Source: Comamonas terrae (GTDB lineage: Bacteria > Pseudomonadota > Gammaproteobacteria > Burkholderiales > Burkholderiaceae_C). Taken from it: a stretch of DNA of 64,000 nucleotides. The translations under genes were made by a program, and so were the position numbers. The DNA lies in NCBI RefSeq assembly GCF_001544075.1, contig NZ_BCNT01000004.1, positions 124,001 through 188,000 of the forward strand, given 5' to 3'. Of the stretch, positions 36,597-61,037 are shown in pieces (the stretch's first letter is position 1; every line of letters starts with the position of its first letter). The notes beneath the pieces were generated by a model. It ran no database searches, had not been told where the DNA came from, and saw only the letters and a list, made by a program, of their open reading frames with translations.

Positions 36597-37056
36597 GTTG
36601 GTTCCTTGAGAAGGTTCAGTATTTGCACGGCCTGCGACGACACTGTCGATGCCCTTGGCCGCCATACCCCGAAGGTACGGCCGGCGCAAAAGCATCCGGT
36701 TGGCGCAGGCCCTGTCTATTTCGGCCCGGCGCGTCCAGGGCACGATTTGCACGTGCCCAAACAGGCGCCCGACCCATATCACCCTGAACACATTCAGGGA
36801 AACCCGCGATTATCACAGTGTTGGGCCTTTGATGCAATGACCCCAGAACTTGCTAAGAACGGCTGCGCGCCCGCGTCAAGCCCTGTGCATGTGTCGCGGT
36901 TTCTTTACAAACAGGCCGCCTCCGATCCATTAGGATGTGCAGCCTATCCCGCACCGCACCGGGGGACAGCATCCTGATATTTTGTGGATAACTTCCGCAA
37001 AAGCTACAATGGCAGCCCCGTAACTGTTCCTCCTATCCACAACTAGACTTTTGACA
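36597..37056. other. rpmH-dnaA intergenic region (conventional oriC position)
   Basis: A 460-bp gap with one perfect DnaA box TGTGGATAA (36983-36991) and one near box CTATCCACA (37033-37041). It also holds a perfect dyad CCCTGAA/TTCAGGG (36782-36799). Its base content is mixed, with no long AT-rich block. It holds divergent promoters for rpmH and dnaA. Two boxes suit dnaA autoregulation but are few for an origin. Confidence 0.6.
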
Positions 37057-38463
37057 ATGACAGAGGAACCTACCAACGACGCAGGCCAGGCCCTGTGGCA
37101 AGTCTGCGTTGAGCAACTGGGTCAGGAGCTGCCGGAGCAGCAATTCAACACCTGGATCAAGCCGCTGACGGCACAAGTGGCCGAAGACTTCTCCAAGGTC
37201 ACGGTGTATGTGGCCAACCGCTTCAAACTCGACTGGATCCGCGCGCAATATGCGGGCCGCATCTCGGCCATGCTGGAGTCCCTGTACGGCCAGCCCGTGA
37301 CGCTGGAGTTGGCGCTCGCTCACCGAGAAAGCGTTGTCCGCACCTATGTGCGCCCACCCTCGGGCGAGCGCCACGCGCCGCCCGAGACCGTGGCCGTCGC
37401 CGTGCCCACGGTCAGCCCCGAGGAAACGGCCGCGCCGGTCTTCCGCACCCGCCTGAACCCCGCCCTCACCTTCGAGACGCTGGTCGAGGGTACGGCCAAC
37501 CGCATGGCGCGCTCGGCCGCCATGCACGTGGCGGGCTCGCCCGGCCACCTGTACAACCCGCTGTTCATCTACGGCGGCGTGGGCCTGGGCAAGACCCACC
37601 TGGTGCATGCCGTGGGCAACAAGCTGCTGGCCGACAAGCCGGACGCCAAGGTTCTCTACATCCATGCCGAGCAGTTCGTCTCGGATGTGGTCAAGGCCTA
37701 CCAGCGCCGCACCTTCGACGAATTCAAGGAGCGCTACCACTCGCTTGACCTGCTGCTGATCGACGACGTGCAGTTCTTCGCCAACAAGGACCGCACGCAG
37801 GAAGAGTTCTTCAACGCCTTCGAGGCCCTGCTGGCCAAGAAGAGCCATATCGTGATGACCTCGGACACCTACCCCAAGGGCCTGGCAAACATTCACGAAC
37901 GTCTGGTATCCCGCTTCGATTCGGGCCTGACAGTCGCCATCGAGCCGCCAGAACTCGAGATGCGCGTGGCCATCCTGATCAACAAGGCGCGTGCGGAAAA
38001 CGCGGAGATGCCCGAAGAAGTGGCCTTTTTCGTGGCGAAGAACGTGCGTTCCAACGTGCGCGAGCTCGAAGGCGCGCTGCGCAAGATCCTGGCCTACTCG
38101 CGCTTCAACCAGAAGGAAGTTTCCATCCAGCTGGCCCGCGAGGCGCTGCGCGATCTGCTCAGTATCCAGAATCGCCAGATTTCTGTGGAAAACATCCAGA
38201 AGACGGTGGCCGACTACTACAAGATCAAGGTCGCCGACATGTACAGCAAGAAGCGCCCGGCCAGCATTGCCCGGCCGCGCCAGATTGCCATGTACCTGGC
38301 CAAGGAGCTGACGCAAAAGAGCCTGCCCGAGATCGGCGAGCTGTTCGGCGGACGCGACCACACCACGGTGCTGCACGCGGTGCGCAAGATCGCGGGCGAG
38401 CGCCAGCAGCTGACCGAGCTGAACCAGCAGCTGCACGTGCTGGAGCAGACGCTCAAGGGATGA
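37057..38463 (+). CDS. dnaA: Chromosomal replication initiator DnaA
   Basis: A 468-residue initiator: N-terminal domain I ([20 protein letters not shown]), a linker, an AAA+ core with [13 protein letters not shown] (Walker A) and [10 protein letters not shown] (Walker B), and a C-terminal domain IV with [11 protein letters not shown] (box-binding signature). It binds DnaA boxes and melts the origin. ATG 37057 (MTEEPTND) is chosen; a TTG two codons before is in frame. No clear Shine-Dalgarno precedes it. A DnaA-box-like site 16 bp upstream suggests autoregulation. Confidence 0.97.
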
Positions 38464-38652
38464 TGGAAATGGGTCCCGGGCTGCCCAGGAAAGCGCTTTT
38501 CCCCTTGGTGCAGCCCGGTGACGAAAACTCCTCCATGAATACCGCCCGCGCACGGCAAAATGGAGGATTCACGCGGCATGAGGGAGCGTCCGCCCCATCC
38601 GGCGGATGCCGCCGCGGCAAAGCAAATGCGCACTTAAATAACTGAGGTTGAC

Positions 38653-39771
38653 ATGATCGTCCTGAAAGCCACACAAGACAAAGTTCTAGCGGTCCTGCAA
38701 TCGGTGTCCGGCATTGTCGAGCGCCGCCACACCCTGCCCATTCTGGCGAACGTGCTGATCAAGAAGACCGGCAACGCCATGCAGCTGACGACCAGCGACC
38801 TGGAAATCCAGATCCGCACCACGGCCGAACTCGGCGGCGACACCGGCGACTTCACCACCACCGTGGGCGCGCGCAAGCTGATCGACATCCTCAAGACCAT
38901 GCCCGGCGACCAGACCGTGAGCCTGGAGACCCAGCAGTCCAAGATGGTCCTGAAGGGCGGCAAGAGCCGCTTCACGCTGCAGACCCTGCCGGCCGAGGAC
39001 TTCCCGCTGGTGCAGGAATCGGCCGCCTTCGGCCCCGCGTTCAGCGTGCCCCAGAAGGTGCTCAAGGACCTGCTGGGCCAGGTCTCGTTCGCCATGGCCG
39101 TGCAGGACATCCGCTACTACCTCAACGGCATCCTGTTCGTGGCCGAGGGCAAGCAGCTGTCGCTGGTGGCCACCGACGGCCACCGCCTGGCCTGGGCCAG
39201 CGCAACGCTGGACGTGGAAGTGCCCAAGCAGGAAGTGATCCTGCCGCGCAAGACCGTGCTGGAGTTGCAGCGCCTGCTGTCGGATGCCAGCGGCGACAAC
39301 CAGCCCGTGATCGAGATGCAGTTCGCGAACAACCAGGCCAAGTTCACCTTCGGCGGCATGGAGTTCGTGACCAAGCTGGTCGAGGGCAAGTTCCCCGACT
39401 ACAACCGCGTCATCCCGCGCAACCACACCAACAGCGTGACCCTGGGTCGCGCCCCGCTGCTGGCCAGCCTGCAGCGCACGGCCATCATGACCAGCGACAA
39501 ATTCAAGGGCGTGCGCCTGACGGTGGAGCCCGGCACGCTGCGTGTGGCGTCCAACAATGCCGAGCAGGAAGAGGCCATGGACGAGCTCGACATCGACTAC
39601 GGCGGCGACACCATCGAGATCGGCTTCAACGTGACCTACCTGATCGACGTGCTCTCCAACATGAGCCAGGACATGGTGAAGATCGACCTGCAGGACGGCA
39701 ACAGCTCGGCGCTGATCACCATCCCCGAGAACGACAGCTTCAAGTACGTCGTCATGCCCATGCGCATCTGA
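38653..39771 (+). CDS. dnaN: DNA polymerase III sliding clamp, beta subunit
   Basis: A 372-residue clamp beginning MIVLKATQDKVLAVLQSVSG and ending YVVMPMRI, the standard three-fold beta-clamp sequence. It encircles DNA and tethers polymerase III. It lies 189 bp after dnaA with its own leader and precedes gyrB, the conserved order without recF between. Confidence 0.97.
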   Translation: MIVLKATQDKVLAVLQSVSGIVERRHTLPILANVLIKKTGNAMQLTTSDLEIQIRTTAELGGDTGDFTTTVGARKLIDILKTMPGDQTVSLETQQSKMVLKGGKSRFTLQTLPAEDFPLVQESAAFGPAFSVPQKVLKDLLGQVSFAMAVQDIRYYLNGILFVAEGKQLSLVATDGHRLAWASATLDVEVPKQEVILPRKTVLELQRLLSDASGDNQPVIEMQFANNQAKFTFGGMEFVTKLVEGKFPDYNRVIPRNHTNSVTLGRAPLLASLQRTAIMTSDKFKGVRLTVEPGTLRVASNNAEQEEAMDELDIDYGGDTIEIGFNVTYLIDVLSNMSQDMVKIDLQDGNSSALITIPENDSFKYVVMPMRI

Positions 39772-39811
39772 CCGCATCGCACCGCACGGGCAACCGCACG
39801 ACGGACTTCTA

Positions 39812-42508
<2,697 letters not shown>

Positions 42509-50995: not shown

Positions 50996-52150
50996 TTAAA
51001 GCAGCTGGCTGGCAGCACCGTCCAGCAGCAGGCCGCCACGCACCACGATCTTCTCGCCTACCTTGAGGCCCGAGATCACCGGCACCATGCCGCGCGCCGG
51101 GCGGCCCAGGGTCACGGTGCGCGCCTCGAACTGGTTGTTCTCGCGCTGCACGAAGACCACGCTGCGGCTTTCGTCCTTGATCAGCACGGCCGTGACGGGA
51201 ATCAGCATCTCCTGCTGGTTGGACAGCTGCACGCCCACGCGCGCCTGCATGCCGGGGCGCAGAGCCGGATTCTGCTCGGCCAGCTCCACGATCACCGCGG
51301 CACGGCGCGACTCCTTGTCCAGCGTGGCGCCCAGATGGCGCACCGTGCCCTTGAGCGGGCGCGGTAGCTGGGGAATCTCCACCTGCACGGGACTGCCCAG
51401 GCGGATGCCGGGCAGGTCGCTTTCGAACACTTCGGCCACGATGTTCATGGCCTGCGGATCGCCCACCATGAACAGCGCGGTGCTGGGTTCCACCGCATCC
51501 CCCACGACGGCCTTGCGCTCGGCGACGATGCCGGCGCGCGGCGCGCGCAGCACGATGCGGTCGCCCTCGCCCGGGCCCAGCAGCGCCGCCGTGCCCTGGG
51601 CGCGCGAGAGCTCCTGCGAAGTCTCGCGCAGCTTGGCCTGGGCGGCCCGCAGATCCACCTCGACGCCCACGCCCTTGTCCACCATGTTCTGGTGGCGCTG
51701 AGCCTCCACCGCGGCCACGTCATGGGCCGTGCGGGCCGCTGCCACCTCGTAGCGGGCACGCAGGGCATCGGGGCTGACCAGGGTGGCCAGCACATCGCCG
51801 GCCTTGACCATGTCGCCCACATGCGCGCTCACATTGACCACGCGCGCCGACACCGGCACCGATACGGAAGCCACACGGTCCTCCACGAAGGCCACATGCG
51901 CAGGCGCCCAGGCCATCTGCACGCCCTGCGGGTCGGCCACGGGCGCGATCTCCAGCATCTTCAGGGACTCGGGCTTGAGCTGCACCATCCCCTTGGGCAG
52001 CTGGGCCACCGGCTTGCCCGGCTCGCCGGCATCCTTGGCGGCCTTGGAGTCATTGCAGCCGGCCAGCAGAACGGAAACGGCCAGGGCCACGCTGCCCAAC
52101 CACACAGGTATATGCGCAGTCTTGGACAGCACCGCGATTCTTTGCTTCAT
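50996..52150 (-). CDS. CzcB-type periplasmic adaptor, lipoprotein
   Basis: A 384-residue membrane-fusion protein. VALAVSVLLAGCNDS (residues 19-33) contains a lipobox (LAGC), so the mature protein should be lipid-anchored in the inner membrane. It then has the barrel-sandwich/lipoyl (SVPVSARVVNVSAHVGDMVKAG), a helical hairpin and a beta-barrel domain (LRPGMQARVGV). It couples the RND pump to the outer-membrane protein. It is first in the efflux operon; a possible operator lies 195 bp upstream. Confidence 0.9.
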   Translation of the reverse strand: MKQRIAVLSKTAHIPVWLGSVALAVSVLLAGCNDSKAAKDAGEPGKPVAQLPKGMVQLKPESLKMLEIAPVADPQGVQMAWAPAHVAFVEDRVASVSVPVSARVVNVSAHVGDMVKAGDVLATLVSPDALRARYEVAAARTAHDVAAVEAQRHQNMVDKGVGVEVDLRAAQAKLRETSQELSRAQGTAALLGPGEGDRIVLRAPRAGIVAERKAVVGDAVEPSTALFMVGDPQAMNIVAEVFESDLPGIRLGSPVQVEIPQLPRPLKGTVRHLGATLDKESRRAAVIVELAEQNPALRPGMQARVGVQLSNQQEMLIPVTAVLIKDESRSVVFVQRENNQFEARTVTLGRPARGMVPVISGLKVGEKIVVRGGLLLDGAASQLL

Positions 52151-52344
52151 CTTTCACCCTCACACACACGGCTTGCGCAACCCAGGCTCAAGCAAGACGC
52201 TCGCGCTTCGGAACGCCCCTGGGCACATTCCCTGTTTGCGCAAGCCCCAAAACATCCAGGCGGGAGCGAAAAACGGCCTCGCCGTCGACTCCTGCGACGG
52301 GGCCATGCTAGGAAAGAGCCCTGGCTGCAGGGGTGACGCATTGA

Positions 52345-52358
52345 TTACCGTTTGGTAA
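52345..52358. promoter_or_regulatory. TTACC-N4-GGTAA dyad upstream of the efflux operon
   Basis: A perfect 5-bp inverted repeat with a GTTT centre, in the czcB-dinG divergent gap and on the czc side. It may be an operator for the efflux operon's response regulator; this is inferred from position only. Confidence 0.35.
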
Positions 52359-52426
52359 GGATTGCCGGCCAAGCATGTACCGCGGCCGCGCATCCCTTTC
52401 GCTCTGGCGCACGAACGGCAAACATC

Positions 52427-52446
52427 AACTGTATGAAATGACAGTT
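52427..52446. promoter_or_regulatory. LexA-box-like palindrome
   Basis: AACTGTATGAAATGACAGTT keeps CTGT-N8-ACAG and has perfect AACTGT/ACAGTT arms. This fits the betaproteobacterial SOS box. It lies 277 bp before the czcB start and 793 bp before dinG, far from either for direct repression. Confidence 0.5.
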
Positions 52447-52765
52447 GCCTGCCTTCAGCTTCCACTCAATCGTAATTTTTCATACAAAACCGTTCCAGAC
52501 CCGCTTCCTGACCACTTTTGGGACGGTTTGAGCGAGCCTTGCGCTTCATCCAAAAAATTCAATAAAAATCGCATTTTTTCTATTCATAGCAACAGAAGTT
52601 AGCTATAAATAAGATAGCAATCAAAAATTGAAAATATGGCAGCTAGCACATTTCCAGGCATGAATTGGGCTTGTCCCAGGATCAGGGGCACCCATGTCCC
52701 GCCTTCATGCCATATGAGCGCATGCAGAAAAGTGCATATCGGAAAAATGCAAGAAATGACAACCC

Positions 52766-53056
52766 TGTGGATAAATCTGCGGCTTCTTGCTTCATGATCC
52801 ATCCAACCAACTAAAGACACTTATTCACAGGCTTGGGCATCATCTTCACCCAACAAAAAAAATCGGCAACACCAAAATCCAAAGATTCACAAATAAATAA
52901 CAACCACCTGAAGAATCCATCAACAAACATGTGCACAGACTTGCGCACAACATCCAAACACATCAAGGCAGAGCGGATCATGTGGATAAGCACCACAGCA
53001 TGCTGCCCTGGCCATCCACAATTACAATGAACAACTCCTTGGGATCTGGTGGATAA
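52766..53056. other. AT-rich DnaA-box cluster upstream of dinG
   Basis: Three boxes match TTATNCACA exactly: TGTGGATAA at 52766-52774, TTATTCACA at 52821-52829 and TGTGGATAA at 52981-52989. One more at 53048-53056 (GGTGGATAA) differs at one base. The surrounding 52430-53220 is strikingly AT-rich compared with the window. No convincing gene is seen in 52151-53238. It may be part of an origin region, or a DnaA-binding regulatory or titration site. Confidence 0.6.
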
Positions 53057-53238
53057 CATACAGGCAGCCGAACGCTTGCAGACAAGATAGGACGGTACTT
53101 TGTAGCTTGTAAAAAATGTGAACGACCAGTTTTGTAAGCTGTATTTCATAAGAAAAGCAGCTTATTTGATACATATCCCTGTACGAATATTTATAAAACG
53201 CAGTCGCTCAGCGTCCTTGCGTGCCGAAAAACGCTGAA

Positions 53239-55404
53239 ATGCATGAAAAAAAGTGGGCTCAGGATGCCCTGAATTCCTTTGATGCGGTGGTCGGAGCCAT
53301 GCCGGGGTTCCGCAATCGCGAAGGACAGCGAAAAATGGCGGCCCGGGTCGCCCAGACCCTGAGCCAGGCCCAGCTCGGAAAAGTGGATGAAGGCGATCCC
53401 GAACCCCGGCGTTCCATTGCCGTCGTGCAGGCCGGCACCGGCGTGGGCAAATCGCTGGCGTACAGCATTCCGGCCATCAGCATGGCCTTGTCGCGTGGTA
53501 CCCGGGTGCTGATTTCCACGGCCACCGTGGCCCTGCAGGAGCAGCTGGTCAACAAGGATCTGCCCGCCCTGGCCCAGCAGCTCGACCAGCCCTTCAAGTT
53601 CGCCTTGGCCAAGGGCCGGGGCCGCTTCGTCTGCAAGCTCAAGCTGGAGCGCCTGGCCAGCACCGGCGAAGCCCAGGACGAGATGGACGACCTGTTCGGC
53701 GAGGAAGAGGCACAGGCCCGCATGGCCCGCCCCCGCCACGAACTGGAGGCCCGCATCCAGTTCTACAGATCCATGGCCGATGCCCTCGCCACCCAGGCCT
53801 GGAACGGCGACCGCGACATGCTGGAAACGCCGCCCGAAGCCGAGGCCTGGAGTCCCGTGGCCGCGGAATCGGCCTCGTGCACGGGCAAGCACTGCCCGGC
53901 ATTCAGCCAATGCGTCTACTACGAGCGCCGCAAGGACCTTGTGGCCGCCCAGGTCATCGTGGCCAACCACGATCTGCTGCTGTCGTCCCTGGGCTCCAAG
54001 CTGCTGCCGGAGCTGGACAACTGCCTTCTGGTGCTCGATGAAGCCCATCACCTGCCCTCCACGGCCCTGGACCAGTTCGCGGGCGAAATGGACCTGAGCC
54101 GCCTCACCTGGATCGACAAGCTGGCCAGCCGCGCCCTGCGCGTGAACACGGTAGCCGAGGTGGAGGAACTGGCCGACGTGCCCCAACATGCCGGCCAGCT
54201 GCGCCAGCAGCTGCAGGAACTGGCCCGCCTGGTGATGGCGCACTATGGGGACGCCCTGAAGTCCCAGAAGGACAGTTACGGCCCGGCCCGCGTGCGCGTT
54301 CCGCGCGGCGTGCTGCCCGAGGACCTGCTGGAGCCCCTGGGCCTGATCGCCCACCATGCGGACCGCTTCCTGGACGCTCTGCGCGCGGTGTCCAAGGCGC
54401 TGAGAGCCGAAATCAAGGACAAGCCCGAAGAATCCCGCAGGCTTTCCACCATCTATGCACAGGTTGGCGCACTGGCGCCCCGGCTGGAATCCATCTTCGA
54501 CACCACGCAGTTGCTGCTGCAGCAAGCTCCTGAAGATGACGACAGAAAAACCATCCCCAACGCAAAATGGTTCACGTTGGAGACAGATGGCGAGTACATA
54601 GTGGTCAAGGCCCATGCCAGCCCGATACAGCCCGGAGCCACCCTGCGCCAGCATCTGTGGTCGCAGGTGCGCGGTGCGGTGCTGACATCGGCCACACTGA
54701 CCAGCTGTGGACAATTCGACTTCTTCCTGCGCGAGTCCGGCCTGGCCAGCGATGCCTCGGTGACCACGCTGGAGGTCCCCAGCCCCTTCGACTATGCCCG
54801 CCAAGGCACTCTGGTGGCCCGCGAGACGGCCGCAGACCCGCGAGAAGCCGCCCGCTTCACCGAAGAGATGGTCGAGGCTCTATTGACCGATCTGAGCCGC
54901 GTACAGGCGGGTGCGCTGGTCTTGTTTACCTCCAGGGAGCAGATGCGCCAGGCGGTGGATGCCTTGTCCACCGCCATGCGCTCGCAGGTGCTGGTGCAGA
55001 CCGCCCTGCCCCGCCCCACGCTGCTGGCCCGCCACCGCGACGCCGTCGCGCTCGGGGAGCCTTCCATCATCTTTGGCATGCAGTCCTTTGGCGAAGGCCT
55101 GGACCTGCCCGGGGCGCTGTGCGAATCCCTGTTCATCACCAAGCTGCCGTTCGCCCCGCCCGACGATCCCGTGGGCGAAGCACGGGCCGAGTGGCTGCGC
55201 AGCAGCGGCCGCAACCCCTTCAACGAGCTGGTGGTGCCCGCCACTGCCATACGGCTGGCCCAGTGGGTGGGACGCGCCATACGCACGGAGGAAGACCGTG
55301 CCCATGTCTACTGCTATGACCGACGCCTGGTGGCCACCAGCTACGGCCAGCAGCTGATCAAGGGCCTGCCGCCCTTCACCCTTCAGCGCCAGGCCGTGCG
55401 CTAA
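53239..55404 (+). CDS. dinG: DinG-family ATP-dependent DNA helicase
   Basis: A 721-residue superfamily 2 XPD-type helicase: AGTGVGKSLAYS (Walker A), LDEAHHL (DEAH), and late motifs FGMQSFGEGLDLPG and QWVGRAIRTEEDRAH. Four Cys (CKLKLERL, then CTGKHCPAFSQC) should bind a [4Fe-4S] cluster. Such helicases unwind 5'-3', resolving R-loops and damage-related structures. ATG 53239 (MHEKKWAQDAL) is preferred; a GTG at 53221 is in frame. The gene lies between two AT-rich non-coding blocks with DnaA boxes. Confidence 0.92.
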   Translation: MHEKKWAQDALNSFDAVVGAMPGFRNREGQRKMAARVAQTLSQAQLGKVDEGDPEPRRSIAVVQAGTGVGKSLAYSIPAISMALSRGTRVLISTATVALQEQLVNKDLPALAQQLDQPFKFALAKGRGRFVCKLKLERLASTGEAQDEMDDLFGEEEAQARMARPRHELEARIQFYRSMADALATQAWNGDRDMLETPPEAEAWSPVAAESASCTGKHCPAFSQCVYYERRKDLVAAQVIVANHDLLLSSLGSKLLPELDNCLLVLDEAHHLPSTALDQFAGEMDLSRLTWIDKLASRALRVNTVAEVEELADVPQHAGQLRQQLQELARLVMAHYGDALKSQKDSYGPARVRVPRGVLPEDLLEPLGLIAHHADRFLDALRAVSKALRAEIKDKPEESRRLSTIYAQVGALAPRLESIFDTTQLLLQQAPEDDDRKTIPNAKWFTLETDGEYIVVKAHASPIQPGATLRQHLWSQVRGAVLTSATLTSCGQFDFFLRESGLASDASVTTLEVPSPFDYARQGTLVARETAADPREAARFTEEMVEALLTDLSRVQAGALVLFTSREQMRQAVDALSTAMRSQVLVQTALPRPTLLARHRDAVALGEPSIIFGMQSFGEGLDLPGALCESLFITKLPFAPPDDPVGEARAEWLRSSGRNPFNELVVPATAIRLAQWVGRAIRTEEDRAHVYCYDRRLVATSYGQQLIKGLPPFTLQRQAVR

Positions 55405-56732
55405 ACCCCGCCGAACCGGACACAGTGCCACAGTTGGCCACTTCCGGCAGGCCGGGTTGTGGAAAACATTGCCCAACCGGGTCGGCCGGACCGATGGGCT
55501 TTTGTTGCACCGTTTTCGCCTCCGCTGCATGCCCGTGCTCTGCTGAACCGGTTCTGTTTCGGACGGTTCGTTGCCAGAAGACAGTCCGCCGTACTGCTGC
55601 CCGTCCTTGCCGCGGCAGGCGAACATCCGTCCGGCCTGCTTGAGGCCGCTCTCCGTGAATAAAAAAACCAGCAAAAACAGCGGTTTGCTGGATCGATTTC
55701 CTTGCTGCCTCCTCATGCAGAGCCCGGCAGCCGCCCTCGCTTGCCAGGCGTTGAAAATCCATTGAAATTTTTTGAATGATTTTTCCCGGAACTGCGGGAT
55801 GCAGAGGCAGCCGACTGGCCTCCAGGAACAGTCCTGCTTACACACAGGTGTGCAGAACATTCTGTGGATAAATTCCCTTTCAAACGCTTTTCCAGCTGCA
55901 TTTATCCCCAGCTCTGGAAGAGCGAGCCGCGCATCTTACGCCACTTTTCCCTGCAGCGGCGCGTGTATTCCGCTGGAGCCGGATTTTTTCCGCAGTTCAT
56001 GTCGACAAACGCAGCAGAACACCCTCGTGCCGATCCGGAAAAACAAGGAAGACCGAACTTGGCCCCGGTTGTTCTTTGGAAGTTTTATAAAAAAATAGTC
56101 GTAGTAGTAAAGGTCGCTCCAGGCTGTTGATAACTTGAAAAAATATATAAAAATCAAGGAAATTCCTCGAGGATAACGATGTGCATGGACATGCTTTGCC
56201 GCTGTCCTGCTGGAATGAACAAGTCTGGCTGAATGGTTCTTTCTGTGCACAAGTAAAAATTTCTTGCGCACTTGTCCACAGTTTTCCACGACAAGGAATT
56301 TTTATAGGTATCTCCATGAATCCATTGAAAAACAAAAGTTTTTAGCTCACTTTTTTATAGTGAACAAGGATTGAAAAGGTTCTTCTACACCTGCATGGCG
56401 CTGTCTGTGTCCATGCATGCGGGCGTTTTCCAGTGATCTGAAGAACGCTTTTTTTATTCAACGCAGCGGAATGGCTGTGAAAAATGCGTCCTTGGTTGTT
56501 ATTCCTAGACTTAGTTTTTTAATTAGTAGTAATAGTAAGTGATCCACTTAAGTGTTGATAAGTGTTAAAACATATTAAAAATCAATAACTTGTGTTGACG
56601 TTAAACATGTGTCTGAAGGCCTGTTGCCGCTGTCCTCGTTTTGGGTACAACTTGGGGCGGCGGCCACGGCTTGTGGAAAACGTCAAAGATCCATGTTTTT
56701 TATCACCATGTTTTTCCACAGGTGCATGCGGG
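55405..56732. other. Long AT-rich non-coding region, candidate chromosomal origin
   Basis: About 1.3 kb without a credible gene. DnaA-box matches: TGTGGATAA at 55863-55871 (perfect); TGTGGAAAA at 55458-55466 and 56672-56680, TTTTCCACA at 56712-56720 and TGTGAAAAA at 56476-56484 (TTTTNCACA form); TTATCCCCA at 55902-55910 and TTGTCCACA at 56272-56280 (one mismatch each). AT-rich blocks lie at 56080-56160 and 56510-56610. Two TAG/TAA trinucleotide runs resemble DnaA-trios (next entry). Confidence 0.6.
56524..56538 (+). other. DnaA-trio-like run (second at 56096-56110)
   Basis: TAGTAGTAATAGTAA is five consecutive TAG/TAA triplets, the sequence form of the DnaA-trio element that DnaA uses to melt bacterial origins (3'-GAT repeats read 5' to 3' as TAG). 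A second run, TAG-TCG-TAG-TAG-TAA, lies at 56096-56110. Both are inside AT-rich sequence with DnaA boxes 40-160 bp away. Confidence 0.5.
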
Positions 56733-56762
56733 CAAAAAAAAGCCACCCTGTCGCGGGTGGCT
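56733..56762 (-). terminator. Terminator of pagL
   Basis: On the minus strand AGCCACCC and GGGTGGCT form an 8-bp stem, followed by eight T residues, 54 bp after the pagL stop. Confidence 0.85.
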
Positions 56763-56815
56763 GGTATGGAAGTGGCCTGCCTGCCTAGGCCGGCCCGGCG
56801 GCCGAAGTCGGCGGC

Positions 56816-57391
56816 CTAGAAATGGCGCACATAGCGCAGCTGCAGAAAGTTCTCTCCCGGATTGGGTTCCTTGATGCCTGCGTTGGAAAGATGCTCGAGG
56901 CGCAGGCTGACCTCGTTCCTCAGTTGCTCGCCGAACAGATAGCCCACACCGATATGGGTGGCAAAGTTGAAGCGCGTGGAGAATTCCTTGTGGTCGGTGA
57001 TGTAGCGGCGGTTGGTGGCGTAGCTCACGCCTATGCCGGCCTCCGCAAACCAGGGGGACTGGCCCTGGTCGGGGCGCCAGCGCAGCGTGGGCTTGGCGCC
57101 GAGGACCCAGGTCGAGCGGTTGCTGCCTTCGTATCTGGCGGACCAGTGGCTGCCCCAGATGTCCCAGTAGCCGGTGACCAGGCCGCCGCCCAGGCGGTAG
57201 CTCCACTGGCTCCAGGGAATGGTGGCGCCCAGGGTCCAGCTGTCCGTGCCATGCTCCGCCGCGCCGTACTGCAGGTACATGCCGGGATTGTTTTGTGAAC
57301 TACCCGGTATGTTCTGTGCAAAACTGTCTGTGCTGACCAGCATTGCCAGCACGGCAATCGCATATCCCCCGTGAAATTTTCGTTTTTGCAT
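56816..57391 (-). CDS. pagL: Lipid A 3-O-deacylase PagL
   Basis: A 191-residue outer-membrane enzyme with a signal peptide (to about residue 25, STDSFA) and a beta-barrel pattern ending in Phe. RLEHLSNAGIKEPNPGEN (164-181) contains the His167 and Ser169 of the PagL catalytic motif (HxSN), with Glu180 the probable third residue. It would remove the 3-position acyl chain of lipid A. AAGGGG precedes the ATG. No regulator is adjacent. Confidence 0.9.
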   Translation of the reverse strand: MQKRKFHGGYAIAVLAMLVSTDSFAQNIPGSSQNNPGMYLQYGAAEHGTDSWTLGATIPWSQWSYRLGGGLVTGYWDIWGSHWSARYEGSNRSTWVLGAKPTLRWRPDQGQSPWFAEAGIGVSYATNRRYITDHKEFSTRFNFATHIGVGYLFGEQLRNEVSLRLEHLSNAGIKEPNPGENFLQLRYVRHF

Positions 57392-57596
57392 GGTAACTGC
57401 CCCTTAAGTGACGTGAACTTCGCAGTCTGCCCGATGGGTTGGGATGGCGCTGCGGCAACGCCGGTTTCTGGCAAGCTGTGTATATCACTGTAGTAATAAA
57501 TCCTGCTGGAGATGTCGGCAGGGGCAGGGGACCGCAGTCAGCAAAAGCTGAATCCTGGAAGCCCCGGGGAAGAGGCGGGGGCAAGCTGCAGCAGCA

Positions 57597-57630
57597 AAAA
57601 AGCCCCCGGCCTGTGCAGGCCGGGGGCTTT
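57597..57630 (-). terminator. Terminator of the Spy-like gene
   Basis: On the minus strand AAAGCCCCCGGCCTG and CAGGCCGGGGGCTTT form a long, near-perfect stem with T run, 21 bp after the stop. Confidence 0.9.
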
Positions 57631-57650
57631 GGCGTTCAGCGCAGCTGTGC

Positions 57651-58217
57651 TTATTGGGCGGCAGGAGCCGATGCCGGTGCAGCCGGGCGTTCGTGCCCGG
57701 GCTTGCCGCCATGCGGTCCATGGTGCGGGCGGGGGCCATGGTGCATGCGCAGGGTTTCGGCATCGAAGGTCTTTTGCTGCTCGGCCGTCAGCTGGGCATA
57801 GAAGGCCTTGGTGGCTTGCGCGCGGCGATCCATCTCGGCATTGCGGTGTTCGCGCATTTCACGCATCTTGTCGATGCGCTGGGGAGTCGTGAGCTTGGCA
57901 AAGGCTTCGCGGTCCATGCGGGCAGGGCGTTCGCCGGGCTTCATGGCGGCGGCGTAGGTGTTCCAGGCGGATTCCTGGGCCGGGGTCAGCTTCAGGTCGG
58001 CCTTGAGCTTGGCGATGCGCTGCTGCATGTGCTCCATGCGTTCGGCGCGCCTGTCTTCCATATTGCCCTGGCCATGCTTGTGCTGGGGCGCTGCCTGGGC
58101 GGTTGCCGCGGCGGGGGCTGCGGGCGCCGTAGTCTGGGCGAAACTGGGCAGGCTCAGCGAGGCGAGCAGGGCGGAGGCGATGGCTGCGCTGGTGAGCGTC
58201 TTGTGAAAGCGGGTCAT
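57651..58217 (-). CDS. Spy/CpxP-like periplasmic protein
   Basis: A 188-residue protein with a signal peptide (to about residue 27, LPSFAQ), an Ala/Pro linker and a helical domain with two LTxxQ motifs (LKLTPAQESAW at about 75-85 and LTAEQQKTF at about 143-151), the Spy/CpxP hallmark. The C-terminal tail is His/Pro/Gly-rich and could bind metal (HHGPRPHHGPHGG). Spy-like proteins act as periplasmic chaperones or stress sensors; the role here is inferred. Confidence 0.85.
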   Translation of the reverse strand: MTRFHKTLTSAAIASALLASLSLPSFAQTTAPAAPAAATAQAAPQHKHGQGNMEDRRAERMEHMQQRIAKLKADLKLTPAQESAWNTYAAAMKPGERPARMDREAFAKLTTPQRIDKMREMREHRNAEMDRRAQATKAFYAQLTAEQQKTFDAETLRMHHGPRPHHGPHGGKPGHERPAAPASAPAAQ

Positions 58218-58476
58218 GCCGGGTTCCTTTCTTGCGAAGTGGATGAAGGGCCGCTCGGTGTTGCTCCAGTGTGGGCATCCGGCAGCGGATGACTGAAGTG
58301 TGGGGTGCCCATGTTTCTGCGGCGTGTGGTTTTGCAGCCGGTCTGTAAAGTATTACGAACGGGTTCTTTAGTTGCTGCGCACAATGGCCGCTGTGGACGT
58401 TGGGCGCATGCCCGTGTTTTGTGTCCGGTCCGGGGCGCCGAGAGGGCGACCGGCCGATGAGTCGAAAAGGTTTTTG

Positions 58477-59526
58477 ATGTTCAAAAACATGATTGTTTAT
58501 CGCATTGCCGAAGGATGGCAAAGCGATCTGCAGGTGCTGGAGGAGGCGTTGAGCAAGACGCCGTTTGCCGAGTGCGGCGCAACCCAGGAGCGCAGCGCCG
58601 GCTGGGTGCCGCCGCGCGGCGAGCAGCACGGGCCGCTGGCCGAGAGCGTGGCGGGCCAGTGGGTGCTGCGCTTCATGACCGAGGCCAAGATGCTGCCGGC
58701 CAGCGTGCTCAACCGCAAGGTCAACGAGAAGGCCGAGCACATCGAGAAAACCGAAGGCCGCAAGCCCGGCAAGAAGGAAAAGAAGGAACTCAAGGACGAG
58801 GCCAAGCTGGACCTGCTGCCCATGGCCTTCACCAAGCAGGGCAGCATGTGGGTGTGGATCGATCCGCAGGCCCGCACGCTGGTGCTGGACACCGGCAGCC
58901 AGGCGCGTGCCGACGAGGTGGTGAGCCTGCTGGTGGAAGGCCTGCCGGGCTTCGCGCTGGCCCTGGTCGATACCCAGACCAGCCCGCAGGCGGCCATGGC
59001 GCACTGGCTGATGACGCAGGAACCGCCGGCCGGCTTCAGCGTGGACCGCGAGTGCGAACTCAAGGCCGCGGACGAATCCAAGGCCGTGGTGCGCTATGCG
59101 CGCCATCCGCTCGACATCGACGAGGTGCGCCAGCACATCGAGCACGGCAAGCTGCCGACCAAGCTGGCCATGACCTGGGACGACCGCGTGAGCTTTGTGC
59201 TCACCGAGGGCCTGCAGATCAAGAAGATCGCGCTGCTCGACGCGGTGATGGACGGGCAGTCCCGGGACGATGGCGGTTTCGATACCGATGTGGCCATTGC
59301 CACGGGCGAGCTGTCGCGCCTGATTCCGGATCTGATCGAGGCGCTGGGCGGGGAAGGGCGCACGGGCTTGGGCGCTGGTCTGCCTGCCGCCTTGCAGGAC
59401 CGCGCGCAGGCATCTGAAACGCTGCCTGTGCGCCTGGCGCAGGCCGGCAAGGGGACAGGCAGGGTGGCCCTGACCGGGCCCGCTGCAGCGCCTGTGGACA
59501 CGGCGCCCGAGGAAGCGCCGTTCTGA
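58477..59526 (+). CDS. rdgC: Recombination-associated protein RdgC
   Basis: A 349-residue protein beginning MFKNMIVYRIAEGW, with GQWVLRFMTEAKMLPASVLN, SMWVWIDPQARTLVLDTGS and LPTKLAMTWDDRVSFVLTEGL in the family order. RdgC forms a ring dimer that binds DNA and limits RecA. The C-terminal 50 residues (after about 290) are Ala/Gly-rich and longer than in E. coli. It stands alone, not in an operon. Confidence 0.93.
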   Translation: MFKNMIVYRIAEGWQSDLQVLEEALSKTPFAECGATQERSAGWVPPRGEQHGPLAESVAGQWVLRFMTEAKMLPASVLNRKVNEKAEHIEKTEGRKPGKKEKKELKDEAKLDLLPMAFTKQGSMWVWIDPQARTLVLDTGSQARADEVVSLLVEGLPGFALALVDTQTSPQAAMAHWLMTQEPPAGFSVDRECELKAADESKAVVRYARHPLDIDEVRQHIEHGKLPTKLAMTWDDRVSFVLTEGLQIKKIALLDAVMDGQSRDDGGFDTDVAIATGELSRLIPDLIEALGGEGRTGLGAGLPAALQDRAQASETLPVRLAQAGKGTGRVALTGPAAAPVDTAPEEAPF

Positions 59527-61021: not shown

Positions 61022-61037
61022 GGTTTCACGTGAAACC
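61022..61037. promoter_or_regulatory. parS centromere-like site 1
   Basis: GGTTTCACGTGAAACC has the 14-bp core GTTTCACGTGAAAC of the consensus parS (TGTTTCACGTGAAACA). Only the outermost base on each side differs. It lies in the thiolase-cueR gap, outside any gene. ParB binding is expected. Confidence 0.85.

Follow-up and report, generated by a model that had tools for sequence, protein, structure and literature searches.

A candidate replication origin with two tandem unwinding modules, remote from dnaA, in Comamonas terrae

The gene-free gap that follows dinG in Comamonas terrae is, on sequence grounds, very probably the chromosomal replication origin (oriC), displaced by about 17.6 kb from dnaA. 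It had been put forward as a candidate oriC in the initial annotation, and nucleotide skew, DnaA boxes, unwinding modules, conservation, and the positions of parS and parB all support that reading. The 64,000-nucleotide stretch that was analysed (hereafter the window) is C4:124001-188000, C4 being a contig of a 4.7-Mb draft genome in 40 contigs. Positions are those of the window unless a contig or another genome is named; background statistics (boxes, AT content, skew) were computed over 320 kb (C4:1-320000).

Gene order and nucleotide skew around the dinG-pagL gap

As judged from profile and gene calls, dnaA occupies positions 37051-38463 of the plus strand; it is followed on the same strand by dnaN (38653-39771) and gyrB (39872-42508), then by efflux genes of the AcrB and HlyD families on the minus strand, and by dinG (53221-55404, plus strand), the product of which is 85-90% identical to the DinG proteins of Comamonas testosteroni, C. 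suwonensis and Delftia. The block beyond dinG had been described as devoid of genes; this holds, and the true gap (55405-56815) is 83 b longer than first stated. On its right come pagL (56816-57391, minus strand), an LTXXQ-family gene, rdgC, a thiolase gene and a chemoreceptor gene. Four ORFs within or overlapping the gap gave no match in Pfam; one of these four, on the minus strand (55936-56289), had been picked by a crude coding score and was taken as spurious. No Rfam match was found in 52000-58500. In a comparison with the gaps of 10 relatives, about 55850-56750 could be aligned to them, unlike the leftmost 400 b and the final 60 b. The dnaA-dnaN-gyrB group (37051-42508) is directed at the putative origin, i.e. 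head-on to a fork leaving it.

Rough counts had suggested a skew switch near 55-58 kb. Their signs (negative for gyrB and dinG, positive for rdgC and the chemoreceptor gene) agree with the computed profile, and the cumulative GC-skew minimum over C4:1-320000 is at 56036, i.e. in the block and not in the rpmH-dnaA gap, the place where a minimum would have spoken against the block. It is 17.6 kb from the end of dnaA, so that the block is not adjacent to that gene. The keto minimum over the same 320 kb is at 56058. A single change point was best placed at 56.0 kb, dnaA being 18 log-likelihood units worse. Adjacent 1-kb blocks depend on one another, and the uncertainty was gauged by a block bootstrap: the 5th and 95th percentiles of the change point were 44.0 and 63.0 kb and, the skew of this genome being shallow, 4.5% of the draws were at or below 42 kb.

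Codon bias had been named as a possible confounder of the switch. At fourfold sites, for which genes were called by a crude choice of ORFs, the skew read on the plus strand was -0.138 to the left of the block, -0.205 between dnaA and dinG (four genes) and -0.059 on the right for plus-strand genes; the corresponding values for minus-strand genes were 0.071, 0.011 (five genes) and 0.177. Non-coding DNA gave -0.039 to the left of dnaA, -0.059 from dnaA to the block and +0.049 to the right. On either gene strand, as well as in non-coding DNA, the dnaA-to-block interval thus resembles the left replichore, and codon bias is rejected as the source of the switch.

These values bear directly on the most obvious alternative. 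The dnaA gene is the usual origin marker; replication might start in the rpmH-dnaA or the dnaA-dnaN gap, and the block would then be a DnaA-titrating cluster of the kind named datA or DARS. The gap upstream of dnaA does carry two DnaA boxes (at 36983 and 37033, one perfect and one with one mismatch), and in nine genomes of the family the unwinding module described below lies directly behind dnaA. However, the cumulative skew is still falling from dnaA to the block, the interval is left-like by all measures, a search with the module model R1 found no module at dnaA in this genome, parS and parB are both right of the block, and the skew of relatives follows the module. A titration site, moreover, would presumably have no need of DnaA-trios. 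Taken together, these points make a dnaA-side origin highly improbable.

DnaA boxes and the two modules

The inventory of DnaA boxes first reported, i.e. one perfect box, four TTTTNCACA boxes and two TTATCAACA boxes, was recovered in full by motif scanning. The perfect box, TTATCCACA (55863-55871), lies next to TTCTGCACA (55849-55857), both on the minus strand, which also carries a TTTTNCACA box at 55458 and TTTTTCACA, another of the four TTTTNCACA boxes, at 56476-56484. A pair made of TTGTGCACA (minus strand) and TTGTCCACA (plus strand) is found between the modules (56244-56280), and two TTTTCCACA boxes on opposite strands (56672, minus; 56712, plus) lie in the conserved right end (56672-56720). 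The block contains 8 TTNTNCACA boxes, where the 320-kb average would predict 0.12 in 1,328 b, and no 1,328-b window clear of it has more than 3; for one-mismatch boxes the figures are 13 against 0.3 expected, with a maximum of 4 elsewhere in the 320 kb. It is the densest cluster of near-consensus DnaA boxes of the 320 kb. Perfect TTATNCACA boxes do not single it out (one, versus three in a cluster upstream of dinG), and as an origin marker on their own they were rejected. Across the 320 kb, AT content over 500 b is highest in a stretch that begins in the block, at 56083, and AT-rich DNA there adjoins DnaA boxes, as expected of an unwinding element.

The AT-rich blocks had been said to hold two runs of TAG/TAA triplets. 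Both runs exist, and each can now be assigned to one of two homologous modules, arranged in tandem as direct repeats 430 b apart; this organization was recognized from the right part of the block, which gave two matches in most relatives' loci. A module starts with an AT-rich flank, followed by the trios; a 14-nt spacer separates these from the DnaA box, and a further 18 nt lie between the box and the IHF-like site. Module A (56081-56165, plus strand) has the trio run TAG TCG TAG TAG TAA (56096-56110, plus strand), the box TTATCAACA on the minus strand (TGTTGATAA on the plus strand; 56125-56133), 14 nt from the trios, and 18 nt further on the IHF-like site AATCAAGGAAATT (56152-56164, plus strand), in which the WATCAA half is kept and the TTR half fails. 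Module B (56512-56598, plus strand) has the run TAG TAG TAA TAG TAA (56524-56538, plus strand), the sole site of the 320 kb with at least four consecutive TA[AG] triplets, then, with the same two distances, a TTATCAACA box (56553-56561, minus strand) and the IHF-like site AATCAATAACTTG (56580-56592, plus strand). The latter matches in full the IHF consensus WATCAANNNNTTR, which in its strict form occurs five times in the 320 kb, one of them in module B.

These features are kept in order and spacing across the genus, as the proposal that the block is oriC had led one to expect. In an alignment of 33 relatives' copies the box is either TGTTGATAA or TGTGGATAA, save in the B copies of loci L020, L034 and L049, each of which has a one-base variant. 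The 18-nt distance from box to IHF-like site is constant wherever a looser IHF pattern matched; that pattern was unmatched in module A of the window, in several relatives' A copies and in the B copies of L030 and L038.

The anatomy of the modules fits what is known as DnaA spreading from a box onto trios, which, in the part of PMC8287927 available to us, was worked out in Bacillus subtilis and tested in several species. The rule given there for the basal unwinding system (BUS) of B. subtilis and others asks for a DnaA box, a spacer of 0-16 nt and at least three NAN trios, mostly TAG or TAA (PMC8287927). Both modules conform to it, with a 14-nt spacer and, in B, five such triplets; they depart from the systems described in that text in that the arrangement occurs twice, as a direct repeat, and in the second triplet of module A, which is TCG.

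The left half of the Escherichia coli oriC (DUE, DnaA box R1, IHF site) has its elements in the same order, and its box, 18-nt gap and IHF site align without gaps to the module (positions 287-342 of L247, 19.6 bits, 801 b searched), the alignment stopping short of the trios. Order and spacing of the E. coli type are thus found here, save for the imperfect IHF half-site of module A. The differences are that E. coli has one module instead of two in tandem, that its origin neighbours mnmG (gidA) and mioC instead of dinG and pagL, and that five GATC sites are present here. In both species the origin is separate from dnaA (for E. coli, PMC8287927, as far as the portion consulted goes).

From this anatomy we infer the following course of events, including the use of both modules. 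DnaA would bind the outlying boxes and the box of each module, and IHF (or HU) would bend the DNA at the site 18 nt beyond that box. DnaA would spread from the box over the 14-nt spacer onto the plus-strand TAG/TAA trios and there open the AT-rich DNA, upon which DnaB would be loaded. Forks would depart in both directions, and ParB at the right-hand parS group would move the new origin.

The module in relatives and its distance from dnaA

By DNA similarity the block was detected in 20 of 61 genomes, own included, all of them within the genus (37 of the 61), with matches of just 24-32 b in G010, G024 and G034. A sequence-only model of 88 positions, R1, was built from 35 module copies; at least 14 of the 37 genus genomes supplied training copies, and G105, G117, G014 and G123, discussed below, gave it none. 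At E≤0.1 the module was found in all 37 genus genomes. The C. terrae genome has exactly two matches, 56084-56164 in module A (60.7 bits) and 56514-56594 in module B (61.6 bits). Two matches on one strand of one contig, with starts 358-438 b apart, are the rule (35 of 37), the exceptions being G011, which lacks a pair on the same contig, and G032, with a single match. In 30 of the 37, own included, both copies span trios and box, 372-438 b apart. In G007, G008, G014, G018 and G020 only a weak second match was obtained (E 0.003-0.06), which starts at model positions 30-40 and so is without trios.

How many modules open is a matter on which we hold two readings, neither of them firmly. Tentatively, most Comamonas and Delftia would have a twin-core origin, with two complete, co-oriented modules some 370-440 b apart that both open, in a family where the origin has repeatedly parted from dnaA and now lies up to hundreds of kb off, dnaA no longer marking it. 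If so, the twin core could give each fork its own site for helicase loading, or serve as a back-up. It is also conceivable, though we would not count on it, that the block is oriC and that a single module opens (B in C. terrae), the other being a relic or an auxiliary DnaA/IHF platform. In favour of this, the IHF consensus is complete and the TA[AG] run uninterrupted in module B, the upstream copy is far outscored by the downstream one in G010, G029 and G034, and G032 has one match; in the five genomes with a weak second match, it is the downstream copy that matches only from about the box on. Against a single active module stand the 30 genomes with trios and box in both copies, and the fact that the stronger copy varies between clades, no copy being consistently good.

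In wider samples, R1 found the module in 126 of 150 genomes sampled from the family (E≤0.01) and in 38 of 120 sampled from the order, some of the latter belonging to the same genus and family. One genome of another family of the order, G043, has the same tandem pair (C1:5138122-5138595, 391 b apart), far along the contig. Extra matches were seen in G063, G064, G117, G156 and G205, all from other genera, at distances of 3-5 kb (9-20 kb in G064); in G117 the interval between the matches contains pagL and two further genes, one from the Gate family.

The distance between dnaA and the module could be assessed in 26 of the 29 genus genomes, own included, in which dnaA was placed; G007 and G020 were set aside (dnaA and module on different contigs), as was G031 (contig closure uncertain). 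By hand count it ranges from about 16 to 268 kb, and dnaA is directed towards the module in 24 of the 26 (away from it in G022 and G036), so that in these 24 dnaA would be read against the fork if forks leave both ways. Among a set of 37 genomes, which included G043, nine, all from other genera (G062, G072, G104, G124, G140, G167, G193, G201 and G203), have the module within 234 b of the 3' end of dnaA, presumably in the dnaA-dnaN gap. In 21 others the modules listed are, by the contig numbering, at least 13 kb from dnaA on the same contig, a figure to be read with caution as contig closure is uncertain and some matches are near E 1e-4. Module and dnaA are on different contigs in G070 and G128; there was no module match in G164, and no place among the matches listed for G067, G099 and G133. 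The same module is found beside dnaA, with one match each, in other genera of the family, and remote and paired here.

The module is still accompanied by pagL, the LTXXQ gene and rdgC in G014 and by pagL in G117, the remaining neighbours being different; no pagL was among the neighbours scanned in G123 and G105. In this genus a rearrangement may have moved dnaA and other left-hand genes off the origin. Transposase fragments are present in G014 (L273:3514-5415) on the side away from pagL, at 3-5 kb from the module. That the chromosome acquired the block by capture of a plasmid- or phage-type origin seems scarcely credible: we found no evidence for it, no rep gene is present among the neighbours scanned, and the occurrence of the module family-wide, as well as directly behind dnaA in nine genomes, argues for vertical descent.

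In eight genomes the skew minimum could be set against the module. It is within 1 kb of a module in six and within 9 kb in the other two. The stretches analysed include dnaA in C. terrae (window 56036, module at 56084) and in three relatives: G028 (GC-skew minimum 18325, module 18418, keto minimum 17654), G024 (143455, 143508 and 143402, respectively) and G010 (211642, 211691 and 211404). In G014, where the module search had located the module at 555 kb, the GC-skew minimum (555758) falls between the modules at 555416 and 555799, the keto minimum (532242) being 23 kb away; a separate stretch (660-880 kb) had no skew minimum at dnaA (824 kb) or dinG (733 kb). For the other three the stretches were centred on the module, with dnaA outside: G123 (GC-skew minimum 140532, module 139549, keto minimum 140408), G117 (389298, i.e. 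5 kb off the module at 394651, with a keto minimum at 394629) and G105 (1777468, 8 kb off the module at 1785693, with a keto minimum at 1780408). GC-skew minima in other genomes thus track the module rather than dnaA. The genome of G028 is a single contig that begins with dnaA (base 1); its skew in spaced stretches is positive at 0.5-2.5 Mb and negative at 3.0-5.5 Mb, which places the other switch between 2.5 and 3.0 Mb. At G105:C1:1811951, 26 kb away from the module, 10 TTNTNCACA boxes fall within 1.3 kb.

Origins remote from dnaA are already known, in E. coli, in a cyanobacterium (PMC6323995, from the part consulted) and on chromosome 1 of a relative, Cupriavidus metallidurans CH34, where the GC skew switches about 90 kb from dnaA, by three perfect DnaA boxes; the part of that report at our disposal mentions neither trios, nor an IHF site, nor a tandem module (PMC2864759). 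Among the matches listed in our literature search there was no study of a Comamonas or Delftia origin; nor was there a report of a duplicated unwinding core, though on that subject the search was a weak one and returned unrelated text. As far as can be told, what is new is the tandem core, its genus-wide conservation, and the module's value as a marker in most of the genomes sampled from the family.

There are practical consequences. Several assemblies of the genus, those of G002, G004, G019, G023, G028 and G030, start at dnaA; equating the origin with dnaA would put maps, strand assignments and peak-to-trough growth estimates out by 16 to about 270 kb. The 88-position model locates the candidate origin directly, also in drafts and after relocation of dnaA. 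With two cores in a natural origin, one could test directly how many open sites a pair of helicases requires, and a family in which the origin is now beside dnaA, now remote, would be suited to asking why they are usually neighbours.

parS sites and the box cluster upstream of dinG

A whole-genome search for parS (16-mer, at most one mismatch; a reversed control pattern matched once) gave five matches in the 4.7 Mb, all at C4:187952-195091, i.e. 7.4-14.5 kb to the right of module B and none near dnaA. A shorter parS-like palindromic core, GTTTCACGTGAAAC (61023-61036), is the nearest of a group that reaches C4:195.1 kb, and parB lies just beyond, at C4:196055. Such cores were found about 4-24 kb from a module in seven of the eight genomes examined for skew, G105 having none in the stretch analysed. 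The parS sites and parB give independent support for the oriC reading. A second ParB-family match is present on contig C16.

The gap before dinG contains an outlying cluster of DnaA boxes (52766-53056; boxes at 52766, 52821, 52981 and 53048), three perfect and one with one mismatch, and the 500-b stretch that ranks second in AT content over the 320 kb begins beside it, at 52433. It is tied to the origin by co-occurrence only. A bipartite origin, in which this cluster and the block act together via looping as oriC1 and oriC2 do around dnaA in Helicobacter pylori, is a reading we regard as unlikely, if worth stating. In clades with the origin near dinG, all 17 loci, window included, carry one or more TTNTNCACA boxes within 1.1 kb ahead of dinG, against one of 29 loci from other clades (L091, which has three such boxes after dinG too); the count covers 45 of 80 DinG loci plus the window, includes L063 among the 17 although no module was seen in its 14 kb, and takes in 29 loci of which a minority were part of the module search. 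G010 has 9 one-mismatch boxes before dinG, 6 of them TTNTNCACA. Yet the loci are close relatives, and the presence of boxes may simply follow ancestry; the clusters are some 6-7 kb apart in G010 and G029, and the upstream cluster neither contains four TA[AG] triplets in a row nor gives a module match at E≤10.

Loci around dinG also illustrate what a scan for perfect boxes can miss. Perfect TTATNCACA boxes are absent from the 2 kb after dinG in relatives of the C. aquatica, C. kerstersii and C. avium types; in some relatives with the origin near that gene, the scan thus overlooked origins that the module model located further beyond dinG. R1 gave no match in L063 (C. kerstersii, 14 kb), L109 or L112-L115, and placed the module about 3.5-5.7 kb beyond dinG in L060, L061, L062 and L064. 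In G003 (C3:177336-179510), dinG reads through one in-frame TGA, which reflects either a sequencing error or a pseudogene.
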